From a virus, in IMG/VR virus record IMGVR_UViG_3300009184_000146, positions 1 to 29,475 of that record: 29,475 bases of DNA; one strand, written 5' to 3'. The notes under the pieces were generated by a model. The model saw nothing but the letters and a program-made list of their open reading frames with translations, did not search any database and had not been told where the DNA came from. The stretch's first letter is position 1. Every line of letters begins with the position of its first letter. Below are positions 17,399 through 24,794 of the stretch, in pieces. Position numbers and translations under genes: made by a program.

Positions 17399-17475
17399 CG
17401 GTACCCAATAATAACAAAAATAATACGGGTACCATCTCTAAAGAGGACTTCCAAAAGAAGTCCTCTTTTTTTTTC
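17399..17475 (+). terminator. tandem hairpins ending in an intrinsic terminator after gp23
   Basis: The first hairpin pairs GGTACCC (17400-17406) with GGGTACC (17427-17433) around a 20-base loop. The second pairs AAGAGGACTTC (17441-17451) with GAAGTCCTCTT (17457-17467) around CAAAA and runs into about nine T residues. The second is a textbook rho-independent terminator; the first may stabilise the 3' end of the capsid message. Confidence 0.9.
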
Positions 17476-17476
17476 T

Positions 17477-17484
17477 TATAAATA
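17477..17484 (+). promoter_or_regulatory. T4-type late promoter abutting the start codon of the tube-fold gene
   Basis: Exact TATAAATA directly after the gp23 terminator. In T4 late promoters this box spans -13 to -6, which would place +1 at 17490, the A of the ATG. No Shine-Dalgarno sequence lies between box and ATG. Confidence 0.65.
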
Positions 17485-17489
17485 CACAT

Positions 17490-18023
17490 ATGACAGCCTT
17501 ATCAAGAACACCTTCAAATCCAAATTTATTACATCCTAATAAGTTTACACTATCTTTTGATAGATTACCTAATATGCAATATTTTTGCCAAGGTATATCT
17601 ATCCCAGGTTTATCAATGAGTGAAGTGCAAAGATCCACTCCATTTGTTGATGTATATTCTCCTGGAGAAAAAGCAATTTATGATTTGTTTAATGTTACAT
17701 TTTATGTTGATGAAGAATTAAAAGCATGGTTAGAAATTCATAATTGGATTCGTGCATTAACTTTTCCTACTGAATTTGAAGAATATGCTCGTTTACCAAG
17801 ATCAAATAAAAACATATCTAATTTTGAAAGACCTCAGTTTTCAGATTCATCATTGACATTATATTCATCATCAAATACTCCTTATTATAGATTTAAATTT
17901 GTAGATTGTTTCCCAACTTCTATATCTACTTTTGTTGTATCATCTACCGATAGTCCAGATAATCCTATTACTGCCGATGCAACATTCAGATATGCCTATT
18001 ATAATGTTGACAAACTGTTTTAA
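17490..18023 (+). CDS. tail-tube-fold structural protein (gp3- or gp54-like by context)
   Basis: This 177-residue protein has the layout of tail-tube-fold proteins: N-P-N-K-F-T-L-S-F-D-R-L-P, then P-G-L-S-M-S-E-V, then T-P-F-V-D-V-Y-S-P-G-E-K, F-N-V-T-F-Y-V-D-E-E-L and E-I-H-N-W-I-R-A-L, ending with T-A-D-A-T-F-R-Y-A-Y-Y. This matches gp19-related proteins of marine T4-like phages. T4 gp3, the tail terminator, has nearly the same length (176 aa), and cyanophage-type genomes carry gp3 between gp23 and uvsY, so gp3 is my first guess; a tube initiator such as gp54 is the alternative. The ATG lies five bases after a late promoter box, with no ribosome site, so the message is probably leaderless. 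A host-type promoter for uvsY lies in its last codons. Confidence 0.65.
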   Translation: MTALSRTPSNPNLLHPNKFTLSFDRLPNMQYFCQGISIPGLSMSEVQRSTPFVDVYSPGEKAIYDLFNVTFYVDEELKAWLEIHNWIRALTFPTEFEEYARLPRSNKNISNFERPQFSDSSLTLYSSSNTPYYRFKFVDCFPTSISTFVVSSTDSPDNPITADATFRYAYYNVDKLF

Positions 18024-18035
18024 TTAGTGTATACT
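18007..18035 (+). promoter_or_regulatory. sigma-70 promoter for uvsY-uvsW
   Basis: TTGACA (18007-18012), a 17-base spacer and TATACT (18030-18035). Transcription should start near 18042. It lies within the last codons and stop region of the tube-fold gene. Confidence 0.75.
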
Positions 18036-18056
18036 CCTTAAATAAGGAGATTTTTT
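18034..18056 (+). promoter_or_regulatory. hairpin covering the uvsY ribosome-binding site, with terminator-like T run
   Basis: CTCCTT (18034-18039) pairs with AAGGAG (18044-18049) around AAAT, followed by A and six T residues directly before the uvsY ATG. The AAGGAG is the uvsY Shine-Dalgarno sequence. Messages reading in from upstream contain the whole hairpin; messages from the sigma-70 promoter, starting near 18042, lack its left arm. Confidence 0.6.
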
Positions 18057-18491
18057 ATGAATAAACTTGATGAATTATTAGAAATGTGGCGCAAAGATTC
18101 TGTGATTGATAGAACAGAACCTGGCAGAGAATTAATCAATATACCACAATTACATAGCAAATACTTGAATATGCTTTCAAGACATAGATTGTTGTCTAAA
18201 GAAGCAGAGTTTAAATATAACAAAATGCGTAGAGTAAAGTGGGAATACTATACCGGTAAACTAGATGATGACCAACTTAAGAAGTATGGTTGGGAACCAT
18301 TTCCTTTTGTTCTTAAATCCGAAGTTGCATCATATCTTGAAAGTGATGATGACTTAAATAAGTATATTGCAATTAAAGTTATGCATGATGAAATTGTTGA
18401 AGTGTGTCAGAGTATTATGAAAGAACTAAATAGTAGGACATTTCAACTGAGAGACTTTATAGCATGGGAAAGATTCATTCAAGGTGCCTGA
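18057..18491 (+). CDS. uvsY: UvsY recombination mediator
   Basis: This 144-residue protein corresponds to T4 UvsY (137 aa), which loads the UvsX recombinase on gp32-coated single-stranded DNA. It is highly charged and helical. The segment L-H-S-K-Y-L-N-M-L-S-R-H-R-L-L-S-K-E-A (about 32-50), the K-W-E-Y-Y-T-G-K motif and the C-terminal R-x-F-Q-L-R-D-F-I-A-W-E-R-F match the family's Y-x-K-W, D-Y-Y-S-G and F-A-I-K-H-I-x-D segments. It overlaps uvsW by eight bases. Expression is likely early to middle from its own sigma-70 promoter. Confidence 0.85.
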   Translation: MNKLDELLEMWRKDSVIDRTEPGRELINIPQLHSKYLNMLSRHRLLSKEAEFKYNKMRRVKWEYYTGKLDDDQLKKYGWEPFPFVLKSEVASYLESDDDLNKYIAIKVMHDEIVEVCQSIMKELNSRTFQLRDFIAWERFIQGA

Positions 18492-19950
18492 TTTAATATT
18501 ACATAAAAAGAATGAAGCATATATCCAATTTGAATGTGAAAGAAATATAGCACAAGAGTTGGCAGACTTCTTTACTTTTTATGTACCAGGATATCAATTT
18601 ACTCCTGCATATAAAAATAAATTGTGGGATGGTAAAATAAGACTTGCAGATTTAAGGTCTTACACTATCTATCATGGTCTTGTTCCATACATACAAGACT
18701 TTTGTAAAACAAGAGAATATACTCTTGATATAGATTCTTCAATCAGTAATACAAATATTTTTTCCGTAAAAGAAGCAGAAGAATTTATATCTACATTAAA
18801 ATTGCCTTTTGAAGTTAGAGATTACCAATTAAAATCTTTTGTTCAATCAATACGTAATAAAAGATTATTATTAATATCACCAACGGCATCAGGTAAATCT
18901 TTAATATTATATTTGATATTAAGTTATCTACAATATTCTGATTGTAAAAAAGGTTTGTTAATTGTACCAACTACATCTCTTGTTGAACAGATGTATAGTG
19001 ATTTTAAATCATATGGATATAATTCTGAAGAGTATTGCCATAGACAGTATTCTGGTAAAGATAAATCAATAAACAAATTTCTTACTATCACTACATGGCA
19101 ATCAATCTATAAAAATTCACCAGATTATTTTGAACAGTTTGATTTTGTTCTTGGTGATGAAGCACATCAATTCAAAGCAAAGTCATTGACAACTATAATG
19201 ACTGGTCTATCACTTGCAGATTATAGAATAGGTTGCACTGGTACACTTGATGGTACACAAACACACAGATTAGTATTAGAAGGTTTATTTGGACCAGTAT
19301 ACAGAGCAACTACAACAAAAGAATTAATGGATAACAAACAGTTATCTAAATTTAAGATTAAATGTTTAATACTTAAATATCCAGAAGAGGTTTGTAAGTT
19401 GTCTAAGAAGTGGGACTACAAACAAGAGATCGAATATATAGTATTGAACACAGCAAGAAACGCTTTTATAAAGAATCTTGCCTTGTCGTTGAAAGGTAAT
19501 TCATTAATACTATTTCAATTTGTAGATAAACATGGTAAAGTTCTACATAATATTATAAAAGAAGAAGCAGGTAAACGTAAAGTATTTTTTGTGTATGGTG
19601 GTACTGATACCGAAGTTAGAGAATCTATTAGAGATATAACTGAACGGGAAAAAGATGCCATTATCGTTGCTTCTTATGGTACATTCTCAACTGGTATTAA
19701 TATACGTAATTTGCATAATGTAATATTTGCATCACCATCTAAATCAAAAATTCGTAATTTACAATCAATTGGTCGTGGACTTAGATTAGGTGATAATAAA
19801 GAAGAAGCAGTTCTTTATGATATCTCTGATGACTTTAGAATAGGTAAACATGTTAATTATACCTTGACACACTTTGTTGGACGTGTTAAAATGTATGATG
19901 ATGAGAAGTTTAATTACAAGTTTTATAACATAGAGATGAAAAATGGATAA
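18484..19950 (+). CDS. uvsW: UvsW recombination/repair helicase
   Basis: This 488-residue superfamily 2 helicase corresponds to T4 UvsW (502 aa), which unwinds R-loops, reverses forks and migrates Holliday junctions, helping switch from origin-dependent to recombination-dependent replication. Motif I is S-P-T-A-S-G-K-S (132-139), motif II D-E-A-H (225-228), motif III includes G-C-T-G-T-L, and motif VI is Q-S-I-G-R-G-L-R near residue 425. The N-terminal 100 residues form the UvsW DNA-binding head. The start is GTG at 18484 inside the end of uvsY; the stop overlaps the Sm-like gene by eight bases. Confidence 0.93.
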   Translation: MPDLILHKKNEAYIQFECERNIAQELADFFTFYVPGYQFTPAYKNKLWDGKIRLADLRSYTIYHGLVPYIQDFCKTREYTLDIDSSISNTNIFSVKEAEEFISTLKLPFEVRDYQLKSFVQSIRNKRLLLISPTASGKSLILYLILSYLQYSDCKKGLLIVPTTSLVEQMYSDFKSYGYNSEEYCHRQYSGKDKSINKFLTITTWQSIYKNSPDYFEQFDFVLGDEAHQFKAKSLTTIMTGLSLADYRIGCTGTLDGTQTHRLVLEGLFGPVYRATTTKELMDNKQLSKFKIKCLILKYPEEVCKLSKKWDYKQEIEYIVLNTARNAFIKNLALSLKGNSLILFQFVDKHGKVLHNIIKEEAGKRKVFFVYGGTDTEVRESIRDITEREKDAIIVASYGTFSTGINIRNLHNVIFASPSKSKIRNLQSIGRGLRLGDNKEEAVLYDISDDFRIGKHVNYTLTHFVGRVKMYDDEKFNYKFYNIEMKNG

Positions 19951-20388: not shown

Positions 20389-20417
20389 ATTATAACAAAG
20401 ATTGAATAACCTGTCAA
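20389..20417 (-). promoter_or_regulatory. perfect-consensus sigma-70 promoter, antisense to the Sm-like gene
   Basis: On the minus strand TTGACA (20417-20412), a 17-base spacer and TATAAT (20394-20389). All twelve consensus bases are present at the optimal spacing, in the 64-base gap between the Sm-like gene and gp55. Transcription would start near 20382 and run leftward over the Sm-like gene and uvsW. No minus-strand gene follows. Confidence 0.7.
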
Positions 20418-20438: not shown

Positions 20439-20996
20439 ATGAGTAAGAAAAAAACACACTATATCAACAATGCAGATTTCTTAAAGGCACTAAATGAATA
20501 TACCCAAAAGTGCATTGATGCTAAGAAAGATGATAAACCAGAACCTATAGTACCAAACTATATCGGTGAATGTTTTATTAAAATTGCAGAACATCTATCC
20601 AGAAAACCAAACTTTGTATCATATTCATTTAGAGATGAAATGATTGCAGATGGTATTGAAAACTGTATAATGTATTTCAGAAACTTTGATCCTGCTAAAT
20701 CATCTAATCCATTTGCCTATTTTACACAGATTATTTACTTTGCATTTCTACGAAGAATTGCCAAAGAGAAGAAACAACTATACGTAAAATACAAAGCAAC
20801 AGAACAGTTTGGTTTATTAGATGAAGGTGAAATGTTTGAAGATGAGAATGGTCATATGCAACAGTTCAAGATGTATGATAACATATCAGAATTTATTCAT
20901 ACCTTTGAAGAAACTAAAAAGAATAAAAAGAAAGTAAAGATTAAGGGAATAGAAAACTTTATTGAATTGGATGTGAAAGAACTACCAGAAATTTAA
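20439..20996 (+). CDS. gp55: gp55 late-transcription sigma factor
   Basis: This 185-residue protein has exactly the length of T4 gp55, the sigma-like factor that directs host RNA polymerase to TATAAATA late promoters with help of the sliding clamp. A sigma region 2-like segment lies at about 83-107: F-D-P-A-K-S-S-N-P-F-A-Y-F-T-Q-I-I-Y-F-A-F. The same pattern in gp55 proteins binds the polymerase beta-prime coiled coil and the -10 box. I cannot place the C-terminal clamp-binding motif with certainty. The many TATAAATA boxes in this window are its expected targets. Confidence 0.92.
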   Translation: MSKKKTHYINNADFLKALNEYTQKCIDAKKDDKPEPIVPNYIGECFIKIAEHLSRKPNFVSYSFRDEMIADGIENCIMYFRNFDPAKSSNPFAYFTQIIYFAFLRRIAKEKKQLYVKYKATEQFGLLDEGEMFEDENGHMQQFKMYDNISEFIHTFEETKKNKKKVKIKGIENFIELDVKELPEI

Positions 20997-21459: not shown

Positions 21460-22507
21460 CACCCATGCCGGCGCAAGAGGTGACAGTGCAATATTCAATG
21501 AATTCTTTTTTAAGTTTTGGGAAAATGTATTCTTTCCATACTTAGAAGAAAATAATATTACACATGTTTGCCATTTAGGTGATGTTGTTGACCGTAGAAA
21601 ATTTATTAATTATGTTACATTGAATTCTTGGCGTAAAAGATTCTTTGATAGATTATTAAAGAACAATATTCAAATGGATGTTATTGTTGGTAACCATGAT
21701 GTTACATACAAGAATACAAATGAAATTAATGCCATGAATGAATTGTTTGAGCATTACAATAACGTAAATGTATACATTGATCCTGTTGAAAGAGTATATG
21801 ATGGTGTTAATGTTGCATTGGTACCATGGATCAATTCAAGTAATTATCAAAGTAGTTTAGAATTTTTAAATAATACTAAGAGTCAAATTGTATTTGGTCA
21901 TTTTGAAATATCTGGATTTGAAATGGATCGTGGTAATGTTTGTCAAACTGGATTAGATATGGCATTGTTTAATAGATTTGATACTGTATTGTCTGGTCAC
22001 TTTCATCACAAATCAACTAATGGCAATATAACATATCTTGGTAATCAATATGAAATTACATGGGCAGACTATGATGACCAAAGAGGGTTTCATGTGTTTG
22101 ATACTGAGACAAGAGAATTAGAATTTATACCTAATCCATATAAGATGTTTCACAAATTACATTATGATGATACAACACAAGAGTTTGCACATTGGAAGTC
22201 TTTTGATTATGAACAATTGAAAGATGCCTATGTTAAGATTGTGGTAATCAATAAACAGAACCCATATCTGTTTGATGTGGTAATGGATAACTTATATAAG
22301 GTAGGTGTTTCAGATATAGGTATAGTTGAAGATTTTACTGATACTTCAGTTGCTGATGATGAAGAGTTAATAAATCAGGCAGAAGATACTATGACTATCT
22401 TAAATAAGTATATTGACGGCTTGACATTGAATGTAAAACCTGATATACTTAAAGGGTTGATGAAAGAACTATATGTGGAAGCGGTAAATGTTGAAAGAGT
22501 TGATTAA
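21437..22507 (+). CDS. gp47: gp47 recombination nuclease subunit (SbcD/Mre11-like)
   Basis: This 356-residue metallophosphatase is the nuclease partner of gp46 in end processing for recombination-dependent replication and host DNA breakdown. Metal-binding motifs run in the standard order: N-D-T-H-A-G (7-12), G-D-V-V-D-R, G-N-H-D, G-H-F-E and G-H-F-H-H. The ATG at 21437 is chosen over a TTG three bases earlier because GAGGAG is well spaced from it. The gene begins inside the cytidylyltransferase gene and shares one base with gp46 (TAATG). Confidence 0.93.
   Translation: MKLALINDTHAGARGDSAIFNEFFFKFWENVFFPYLEENNITHVCHLGDVVDRRKFINYVTLNSWRKRFFDRLLKNNIQMDVIVGNHDVTYKNTNEINAMNELFEHYNNVNVYIDPVERVYDGVNVALVPWINSSNYQSSLEFLNNTKSQIVFGHFEISGFEMDRGNVCQTGLDMALFNRFDTVLSGHFHHKSTNGNITYLGNQYEITWADYDDQRGFHVFDTETRELEFIPNPYKMFHKLHYDDTTQEFAHWKSFDYEQLKDAYVKIVVINKQNPYLFDVVMDNLYKVGVSDIGIVEDFTDTSVADDEELINQAEDTMTILNKYIDGLTLNVKPDILKGLMKELYVEAVNVERVD
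22421..22449 (+). promoter_or_regulatory. internal sigma-70 promoter before gp46
   Basis: TTGACA (22421-22426), a 17-base spacer and TATACT (22444-22449), with TG one base before the -10 (extended -10). It lies in the 3' end of gp47; transcription from about 22456 would serve gp46, deformylase and the following genes. Confidence 0.6.
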
Positions 22508-24219
22508 TGATTGTATTCAAAAAAGTTAGATACAAAAACTTCGTTAGCACTGGCAATTATTTTACTGAGATTGATTTTCAAAAATCATCCAATACTTTAA
22601 TTGTTGGTTCTAATGGCGCAGGTAAATCTACAATGCTTGATGCATTGTGTTTTTCTTTGTTCGGTAAAGCATTTAGAAGTATTAATAAACCACAACTAAT
22701 TAATTCTATCAATCAAAAAGATTGTATTACTGAATGTGAATTTGATATTGGTAATAAGAAATATAAAATTGTTCGTGGTATCAAACCTAATATCTTTGAG
22801 ATATATCAGGATGGTGATTTAGTAAATCAAGATGCCGCAAGTAGAGATTATCAAGAATACTTAGAAAAGTTTATTTTGAAATTAAACTACAAATCATTTA
22901 CACAGATTGTTATCTTAGGTTCTGCATCGTTTGTACCATTCATGCAATTATCTGCAAATGATCGTAGGTCAATCATTGAAGATTTATTAGATATACAAAT
23001 ATTTTCTACAATGAATACTGTATTGAAAGATAAGATATCTGGTAATAAAGATCAGGTTACAGATAACAATTCTAAGTTACAAATTGTAGAAGCAAAGATT
23101 GAAATACAGAATACTCATATTAGAAGTATCCAAAAAACTAATGAAGAGAAGATAGAAGAATATGATAATCAAATCAAATTGTATAATACTGACATACTTG
23201 AATTACAAGAAAAAATACAGCAAACATCCAATGCAATCAATCAACTACAGTCAGACGTGGAAAACAAAATTGAGGTGGAGACTAGACTCAAGAAATTTAC
23301 TAAAATTGAATCGCAGATTGAGAACAACTTATCCAAATATAAGACTGATATCGGTTTCTTTGAACAGAATGATAATTGTCCAACCTGTAAGCAAGAAATT
23401 GCCTTGGGGTTTAAAGAACAACAAATCAAAGATAATAAAGACAGGGTTTCCGAAATAGAATCTGGATTGAAAGTATTAGAAGAAAAACTATTGGCAGAAC
23501 AAGAACGACTAAATGTAATCAATGTAAAACAAAAAGAAATACAGAAATTACAAATTAGTAATGCTACCAATACAACTTCTATTACAGAAACAAATAAGTA
23601 TATTGCAAAACTAAATTCACAGATTGAAACATTGAAATCTAAACAAGATAATCTGGAAGCAGAAAATACTAAATTAAATGAATTGAATACTCAATTGGAA
23701 GTAATATTAGAGAAGAAGAAAGAATTGATTGATGAAAAAACATATTATGAAGCCGCTTCAGGTCTACTCAAAGATACTGGTATTAAAACTAAAATTATCA
23801 AACAGTATCTACCCATTATTAATAAAGTTGTAAACAAACATCTTGCCACATTTGACTTCTTTGTTAATTTTAATTTAGATGAATCATTCAAAGAAACAAT
23901 TAAATCAAGACACCGTGATGCATTTAGTTATGAATCATTCAGTGAAGGTGAGAAACAAAGAATTGATATGGCATTGATGTTGACATGGAGAACAATTGCA
24001 AAGTTAAAGAATTCTGCAAATACTAATCTGTTAATATTAGATGAAATATTTGATTCTAGTTTAGATGCAAATGGTACAGAGTATTTAATGAACATCCTAC
24101 ATATGTTAGAAGATGTAAATTTATTTGTAATCAGTCATAAAGGTGATATATTACAAGATAAGTTTAGGTCAGTAATTAAATTTGAGAAGGTAAATAATTT
24201 TTCGAGGATAGCAAAATGA
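22507..24219 (+). CDS. gp46: gp46 recombination ATPase (SbcC/Rad50-like)
   Basis: This 570-residue protein is the SMC-type ATPase that works with gp47. Walker A is V-G-S-N-G-A-G-K-S-T (33-42); a long coiled coil is broken by the zinc hook C291-P-T-C294; the ABC signature is F-S-E-G-E-K-Q-R-I-D and Walker B is L-L-I-L-D-E-I-F-D-S. T4 gp46 is 560 residues. One-base overlap with gp47 upstream and ATGA overlap with the deformylase gene downstream. A sigma-70 promoter inside gp47 may give it extra transcription. Confidence 0.95.
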   Translation: MIVFKKVRYKNFVSTGNYFTEIDFQKSSNTLIVGSNGAGKSTMLDALCFSLFGKAFRSINKPQLINSINQKDCITECEFDIGNKKYKIVRGIKPNIFEIYQDGDLVNQDAASRDYQEYLEKFILKLNYKSFTQIVILGSASFVPFMQLSANDRRSIIEDLLDIQIFSTMNTVLKDKISGNKDQVTDNNSKLQIVEAKIEIQNTHIRSIQKTNEEKIEEYDNQIKLYNTDILELQEKIQQTSNAINQLQSDVENKIEVETRLKKFTKIESQIENNLSKYKTDIGFFEQNDNCPTCKQEIALGFKEQQIKDNKDRVSEIESGLKVLEEKLLAEQERLNVINVKQKEIQKLQISNATNTTSITETNKYIAKLNSQIETLKSKQDNLEAENTKLNELNTQLEVILEKKKELIDEKTYYEAASGLLKDTGIKTKIIKQYLPIINKVVNKHLATFDFFVNFNLDESFKETIKSRHRDAFSYESFSEGEKQRIDMALMLTWRTIAKLKNSANTNLLILDEIFDSSLDANGTEYLMNILHMLEDVNLFVISHKGDILQDKFRSVIKFEKVNNFSRIAK

Positions 24220-24794
24220 GTGATATTTTAACGATTGATACAGGATTTGGAGTTGCAAAACCAAAAGAAGAAGAGATTCTTCCATATGGATTAGTAGACC
24301 CATCACATCCAGCATTACATGAACCAATACCTGAATATGATGAAACTTCATTACCAAATATTCATATGTCTAATTTAATTAAACGATTAAAAATGACAAT
24401 GAAACTATATGGTGGTATTGGCATCTCTGCCAATCAATGTGGTATAAGAGAACGAGTTTTCATTTTAGGTAATGAACACTTTCAAATGGCATGTATTAAC
24501 CCTAAAATTGTAGAAACAGGCAAAGAAGTTGCCAAGTTAAAGGAAGGATGTTTAAGTTATCCTGGTTTAACTTTAAATATATCTAGACATACATCAATAA
24601 AAGTAGTATACTATACAGAGTCAGGAGAACAAAAAACACATGAATTTGATGGTATTACTGCTCAATGTTTCCAACATGAATTAGACCATATGAATGGAAC
24701 ATTATTTACTGAACATGTTGGTTCTCTTGCCTTGAAGATGGCAAAAAAGAAACAAGATAAAATGATTAAACAATATAGAAGAATGGTTAAATGA
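24216..24794 (+). CDS. def: peptide deformylase
   Basis: This 192-residue protein removes the N-terminal formyl group from nascent proteins. All three active-site motifs are intact: G-I-G-I-S-A-N-Q (67-74), E-G-C-L-S (110-114, Cys112 as metal ligand) and H-E-L-D-H (154-158, two His ligands and catalytic Glu). Phage deformylases are usually shorter; this one keeps a basic C-terminal helix (K-M-A-K-K-K-Q-D-K) and a 25-residue N-terminal extension. Both ends overlap neighbours by ATGA. It presumably keeps pace with heavy synthesis of phage proteins. Confidence 0.92.
   Translation: MSDILTIDTGFGVAKPKEEEILPYGLVDPSHPALHEPIPEYDETSLPNIHMSNLIKRLKMTMKLYGGIGISANQCGIRERVFILGNEHFQMACINPKIVETGKEVAKLKEGCLSYPGLTLNISRHTSIKVVYYTESGEQKTHEFDGITAQCFQHELDHMNGTLFTEHVGSLALKMAKKKQDKMIKQYRRMVK

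Follow-up and report, generated by a model that had tools for sequence, protein, structure and literature searches.

Gene e (lysozyme), soc, 49, I-TevI and segB of bacteriophage T4, and mobE of Aeh1, have a promoter embedded in the 5' arm of a hairpin that hides the Shine-Dalgarno sequence (SD) (PMC3014915, PMC2988022). In genes of this type the longer read-through RNA, early or middle, is folded and silent, and the RNA started at the embedded late promoter is free and is translated; for some introns the embedded promoter is middle or late (PMC3014915, PMC2988022). The locus described here lies ahead of the recombination mediator gene uvsY in the virus record IMGVR_UViG_3300009184_000146, a stretch of 29,475 bases called the window below.

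A comparable logic operates in mobile elements. In the fold-back inhibition of IS10 and IS50, the element's own promoter yields a translatable transposase mRNA, and RNA from outside folds over the ribosome site. This limits transposition after insertion, and the pairing arms come from the transposon ends. A limited literature search found no description of such a promoter-hairpin arrangement at uvsY.

We propose that the uvsY locus is probably a read-through filter, in which a promoter is threaded through a hairpin that sequesters the SD. The proposal is built on sequence, conservation, geometry, pairing that persists under sequence change and predicted folding. Host-type sigma-70 RNA polymerase would start the uvsY mRNA between the two arms, and the short leader made in this way would leave the SD free for translation of uvsY. 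RNA begun farther upstream, for the most part at the late promoter of the adjoining tail gene, would carry both arms; its left arm would pair with the SD and reduce translation of uvsY, and probably that of the overlapping uvsW as well. The net effect would be that uvsY is expressed from its own promoter, of early type, and shielded from late transcription. Such a filter might serve as a late off-switch or as insulation against overproduction.

The uvsY region of the window

The window has a T4-like gene order: head scaffold, major head protein, tail-tube-like gene, uvsY, uvsW, a DUF6561 protein, late sigma factor and an SbcD-like nuclease. UvsY is identified by its family match together with this order. 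The features that matter here are as follows.

17440..17468, + strand: intrinsic terminator with a 12-bp stem and a T-tail, closing the major head protein unit, 5' of the late promoter
17477..17484, + strand: T4-type late promoter sequence TATAAATA, five bases 5' of the tail-gene ATG
17490..18023, + strand: tail-tube/tail-completion (gp19/gp3-like) gene, the neighbour of uvsY (phrog_45, E 1.9e-30)
18007..18012, + strand: -35 element TTGACA, overlapping the end of the tail gene
18030..18035, + strand: -10 element TATACT, after a 17-nt spacer; its last two bases begin the left arm of the hairpin
18034..18039, + strand: left (anti-SD) arm CTCCTT, confined to read-through RNA
18042, + strand: transcription start as predicted from promoter geometry, in the loop region 7 nt downstream of the -10
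18044..18049, + strand: right arm AAGGAG, which is the uvsY SD
18051..18056, + strand: run of six Ts after the stem, with one A between, terminator-like in the window
18057..18491, + strand: uvsY recombination mediator gene, ATG at 18057 (phrog_231, E 1.7e-36; PF11056, E 5.5e-29)
18484..19950, + strand: uvsW helicase gene (UvsW_N, PF21241), overlapping uvsY
20439-20996: late sigma factor gene

The arms enclose a loop of four bases, AAAT, and form a perfect 6-bp hairpin (18034-18049) directly ahead of uvsY. Direct reading of the sequence thus bears out exactly what an earlier note on this DNA had described, namely a TTGACA-N17-TATACT promoter at 18007-18035 joined to a hairpin whose right arm is the uvsY SD. 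The uvsW gene has no clear SD of its own and overlaps uvsY, so it may share the control of uvsY; the overlap suggests that the two are probably translated together.

The combined pattern of promoter, arm and SD occurs once in the window and in none of 100 dinucleotide-preserving shuffles. The promoter alone, with at most one mismatch, occurs five times against 0.59 expected. The hairpin pattern alone, with at most two mismatches, is expected 0.67 times by chance in the window and is therefore weak evidence by itself; its weight comes from conservation and geometry.

The same note had proposed that RNA from the late promoter at 17477 reads through with the full hairpin. Late read-through into uvsY, in whatever amount, is indeed to be expected, because the late promoter lies 5', a terminator scan of the window from that promoter to uvsY found none besides the hairpin itself, and a late sigma factor is encoded in the window. 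Exact TATAAATA stands ahead of the tail gene in 53 of 116 relatives, and variants such as CATAAATA or GATAAATA are visible by eye in many of the remainder; terminators like that at 17440..17468 occur at the equivalent place in many relatives.

Several other features of the region were recorded. The late promoter is followed by exactly five bases and then by the ATG (17477-17492), which would place the late start on the A of the ATG and make the late message of the tail gene leaderless. In G001, a 161-kb relative used as the comparison genome for promoters and SDs, ATAAATA-N4-6-ATG stands ahead of seven ORFs and the same motif with N7-11 spacing ahead of none, and shuffled motifs give no such peak. 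A second exact TTGACA-N17-TATACT lies at 22421-22449 on the + strand, inside the end of the SbcD-like gene and ahead of an SMC/SbcC-like gene, and has no CTCC arm. On the minus strand a perfect consensus promoter, TTGACA-17-TATAAT (20389-20417), is antisense to the DUF6561 gene, uvsW and uvsY, and G001 has a promoter with the same hexamers at the corresponding position. The protein encoded at 25768-27162 matches a DruA (Druantia) domain (E 4.7e-20), and its gene is next to a peptide deformylase gene (24216-24794).

Conservation, pairing and specificity to uvsY

Relatives of this UvsY in IMG/VR numbered 427 stretches in one search and at least 575 in another. Conservation was assessed in 135 distinct uvsY upstream regions from relatives, reference phages being left out. 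The -35 and -10 elements are 17 bases apart in 128 of the 135. The -10 is TATACT in 80 and TATCCT in 22; it ends in CT in nearly all, and 125 have C at its position 5. Of the 135 regions, 133 have a stem that overlaps the SD. In 132 the left arm finishes 0-6 nt downstream of the -10, and the right arm begins at least 6 nt past it, mostly 7-11. As sigma-70 transcription starts about 7 bases past the -10, the start predicted from this geometry falls between the arms in 132 regions, and own-promoter RNA would keep the SD and lose the left arm.

The search of related phages that the earlier note had called for therefore finds the overlap of promoter and hairpin in at least 132/135 distinct regions. 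Its reading that messages start inside the hairpin and lack the left arm accords with the geometry, the start being a predicted one, and does so even in a lineage whose UvsY protein is only ~35% identical, where the device is kept. Some members of this lineage have an additional gene between the tail gene and uvsY, so the device travels with uvsY and not with the neighbouring gene. Loss of the arm where the promoter is kept, which the note had taken as counting against its idea, does occur, but in just three of the 135 (L260, L262 and L266). All three have A at position 5 of the -10, a link that is partly circular since the usual C at that position belongs to most arms.

The device is absent from P-SSM2, phiM12, Syn2, YB07, P-TIM68, S-SSM7, S-CAM3, S-SKS1, Sf-FS3 and Melnitz-1. 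A search of bacterial genome contigs for a host returned two distant uvsY genes, both in bacterial MAGs, and psbA was found in none of four related contigs, so no host is claimed.

The two arms change together. Pairs observed include CTCCTT/AAGGAG, CTCC/GGAG, CCTC/GAGG, TCTCC/GGAGA and CTCCA/TGGAG, with ATACTTCC/GGAGGTAT and AATCTCTT/GGGAGATT as further cases. Because the left arms are misaligned in the MAFFT alignment, formal counting of covariation was replaced by a permutation in which arms were swapped. Among 52 diverged representatives own arms pair better than swapped arms, scoring 13.37 against 12.73, and 4 of 1000 permutations reach the own value, phylogeny being ignored. A Fisher test on a single inner base pair of the hairpin was not significant. 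Most of the covariation lies on the left arm, as the right arm is the SD and is constrained by the ribosome in any case. Shuffling the spacer bases gave a mean P of ~0.12 per sequence, with no single sequence significant alone; this is a weak test, as the shuffle retains the C-rich composition.

Promoters elsewhere in these phages are built differently. The early-type promoters of G001 are mostly TATAAT with longer leaders, and among its 17 genes with both promoter and SD the anti-SD arm at the -10 is found in uvsY alone (0/16 in the others). The uvsY promoter can be said to pay for the device, for its -10 ends in CT where the other strong G001 promoters have TATAAT. The pattern CTCCTN2-12AGGAG has one site in each of five related contigs. 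The device is present in 75/78 uvsY loci against 0/10 other genes, the latter not having been fetched by the pattern. A scan of IMG/VR with TTGACA-N16-18-TANNCTCC-N2-12-AGGAGG, which contains CTCC, gave at least 120 matches, with uvsY downstream in 57/80 among the matches listed; a control scan with CACC in place of CTCC gave 16 matches in all. The scan made no use of the uvsY protein and is thus an independent route to this gene.

On the minus strand of G001 at ~79,270, a consensus promoter and an SD are separated by a long structured leader (GTGTCGC..GCGACAC).

Predicted folding and alternative explanations

The predicted probability that the SD is unpaired has a median of 0.19 for read-through and 0.79 for promoter-started RNA, with 0.51 for the SD genes of G001. 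In the window the prediction at 37 C is 0.045 for read-through and 0.785 for promoter-started RNA; at 15 C the two figures are 0.036 and 0.587. The energy of the window hairpin is -5.5 kcal/mol at 37 C and -8.7 at 15 C; relatives range from -4 to -7 kcal/mol at 37 C, with stems of 4-6 bp. When 300 or more bases of upstream RNA are included in the model, longer-range pairing supplants the local hairpin and the SD stays paired. These predictions suggest repression that is partial to strong, with an off state that is not certain; it may be partial because the individual hairpin energies are modest.

Hairpins of this kind could act in other ways. It is unlikely that the conserved function is that of a transcription terminator, in which the hairpin and T6 would end late tail-gene transcripts ahead of uvsY, own-promoter RNA would escape for want of the left arm, and SD pairing would be a by-product. 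In the window clade the stem is directly followed by T6 and a scan for terminator-like structures matches it, and termination may add to the effect in that clade. Across relatives, however, just 48/133 hairpins have five or more Ts in the eight bases after the stem, despite an AT-rich leader, and the stems are weak, at the length and energy given above. The G+C-rich stem and conserved T run of a terminator are thus wanting, the terminator was rejected as a conserved function, and the terminator-like T6 tail to which the earlier note had pointed does not hold as a general feature.

In nearly all regions the left arm is in contact with the -10, as it might be if the signal were read in DNA. The dyad over the -10 and start would then serve as an operator, or CTCC would tune initiation as part of the promoter or discriminator, and RNA pairing would be incidental. 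A -10 ending in CT and a C-rich discriminator could weaken or regulate a promoter. We give this explanation a low probability: the loop varies from 3 to 10 nt and the arm register shifts relative to the -10, unlike a fixed operator, which was rejected on this ground; changes in the left arm track those in the SD; and the other promoters of the phage have no such arm.

Translational coupling has a smaller chance still. Ribosomes finishing the tail gene would melt the left arm, and uvsY on the late message would be translated only if the tail gene is. The tail-gene stop is close: in the window, as in 37 relatives, the left arm lies 10 nt beyond it. A ribosome terminating there would by its footprint reach only ~18033. 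Roughly half of the relatives have 19-35 nt between the stop and the arm, and in one lineage a further gene intervenes. Coupling was rejected because the distance from stop to left arm is so variable, at 4 to 35 bases. Chance would mean that complementarity of a strong SD to a -10 close by is a frequent coincidence with no function, and a lone 6-bp hairpin is indeed nothing unusual in 29 kb. This explanation is largely refuted, and highly improbable, given the 132/135 conserved distinct regions, the control scan and the negative results at other promoters.

The structure and geometry of the hairpin have thus very likely been selected, and a filter against read-through RNA is the function that we favour. 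In compact phage genomes early and late genes share a strand without room for terminators. The uvsY device, as proposed, would need ~45 bases for a gene to be read from its own promoter alone. Its sequence signature is simple, and in many uncultured aquatic phages it is linked to a key gene of replication and recombination; if it works as proposed, UvsY is not necessarily being made when RNA-seq shows coverage of uvsY late in infection.

Comparison with described systems

The marine cyanophages P-SSM2, S-SSM7, S-CAM3, S-SKS1 and Sf-FS3 share with the window a tail-completion gene followed by uvsY, with uvsW close downstream; in annotated cyanophages this neighbour of uvsY is named gp3. Their uvsY, unlike that of the window, directly adjoins the gene ahead of it or overlaps with it, and no promoter-hairpin was seen there. 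Possible analogues occur in S-CRM01 and S-B68, where the end of the -10 can pair over 6 bp with bases next to the AUG of uvsY (ACTGAG/CTCAGT and ACTGAC/GTCGGT, respectively); these pairings are suggestive, and two cases are too few for a claim.

Unrelated phage helicase genes at four loci (L130, L133, L146 and L151) have TTGACA..CTATCCTCC-loop-AAGGAGG, with anti-SD arms that overlap the promoter and are conserved and loops that differ. It is conceivable, if doubtful, that phages make general use of promoter-threaded anti-SD hairpins, in which the -10 doubles as anti-SD and a gene is made deaf to the transcription of its neighbours; uvsY would then be the commonest case, with the helicases (L130/L133, L146/L151) and perhaps the uvsY of S-CRM01 and S-B68 as others.

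The fold-back control of IS10 and IS50 has the same polarity of logic as that proposed at uvsY. The uvsY locus differs: it is a block of phage genes (tail gene, uvsY, uvsW) that is conserved, its arms are not the ends of a mobile element, and the genes are unrelated.

The classical gene e arrangement is itself present in G001, at ~66,730 on the minus strand, where TATAAATACTC-N9-GGAGTATTT-AAATG precedes a 426-aa ORF. This ORF, one of the other promoter-plus-SD genes of G001, has a strong 9-bp SD hairpin whose left arm contains a T4-type late promoter.

Like gene e, uvsY has an SD that is predicted to be paired in the longer, upstream-initiated RNA, and an embedded promoter whose transcript, by the geometry of its predicted start, would lack the 5' arm. 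Unlike in gene e, the embedded promoter is the host-type (early) TTGACA-N17-TATACT instead of late TATAAATA, the read-through expected is late, and the gene is a recombination mediator. As the embedded promoter is not a T4 late promoter, we do not class the uvsY device as a member of the e type, only as one that would work like it. The inversion of timing relative to gene e that the earlier note had suggested agrees with these promoter sequences, the silent RNA being the one expected late. The control proposed for uvsY resembles that of gene e and transposon fold-back; its timing would be opposite to that of gene e and so appears to reverse the order known from T4.
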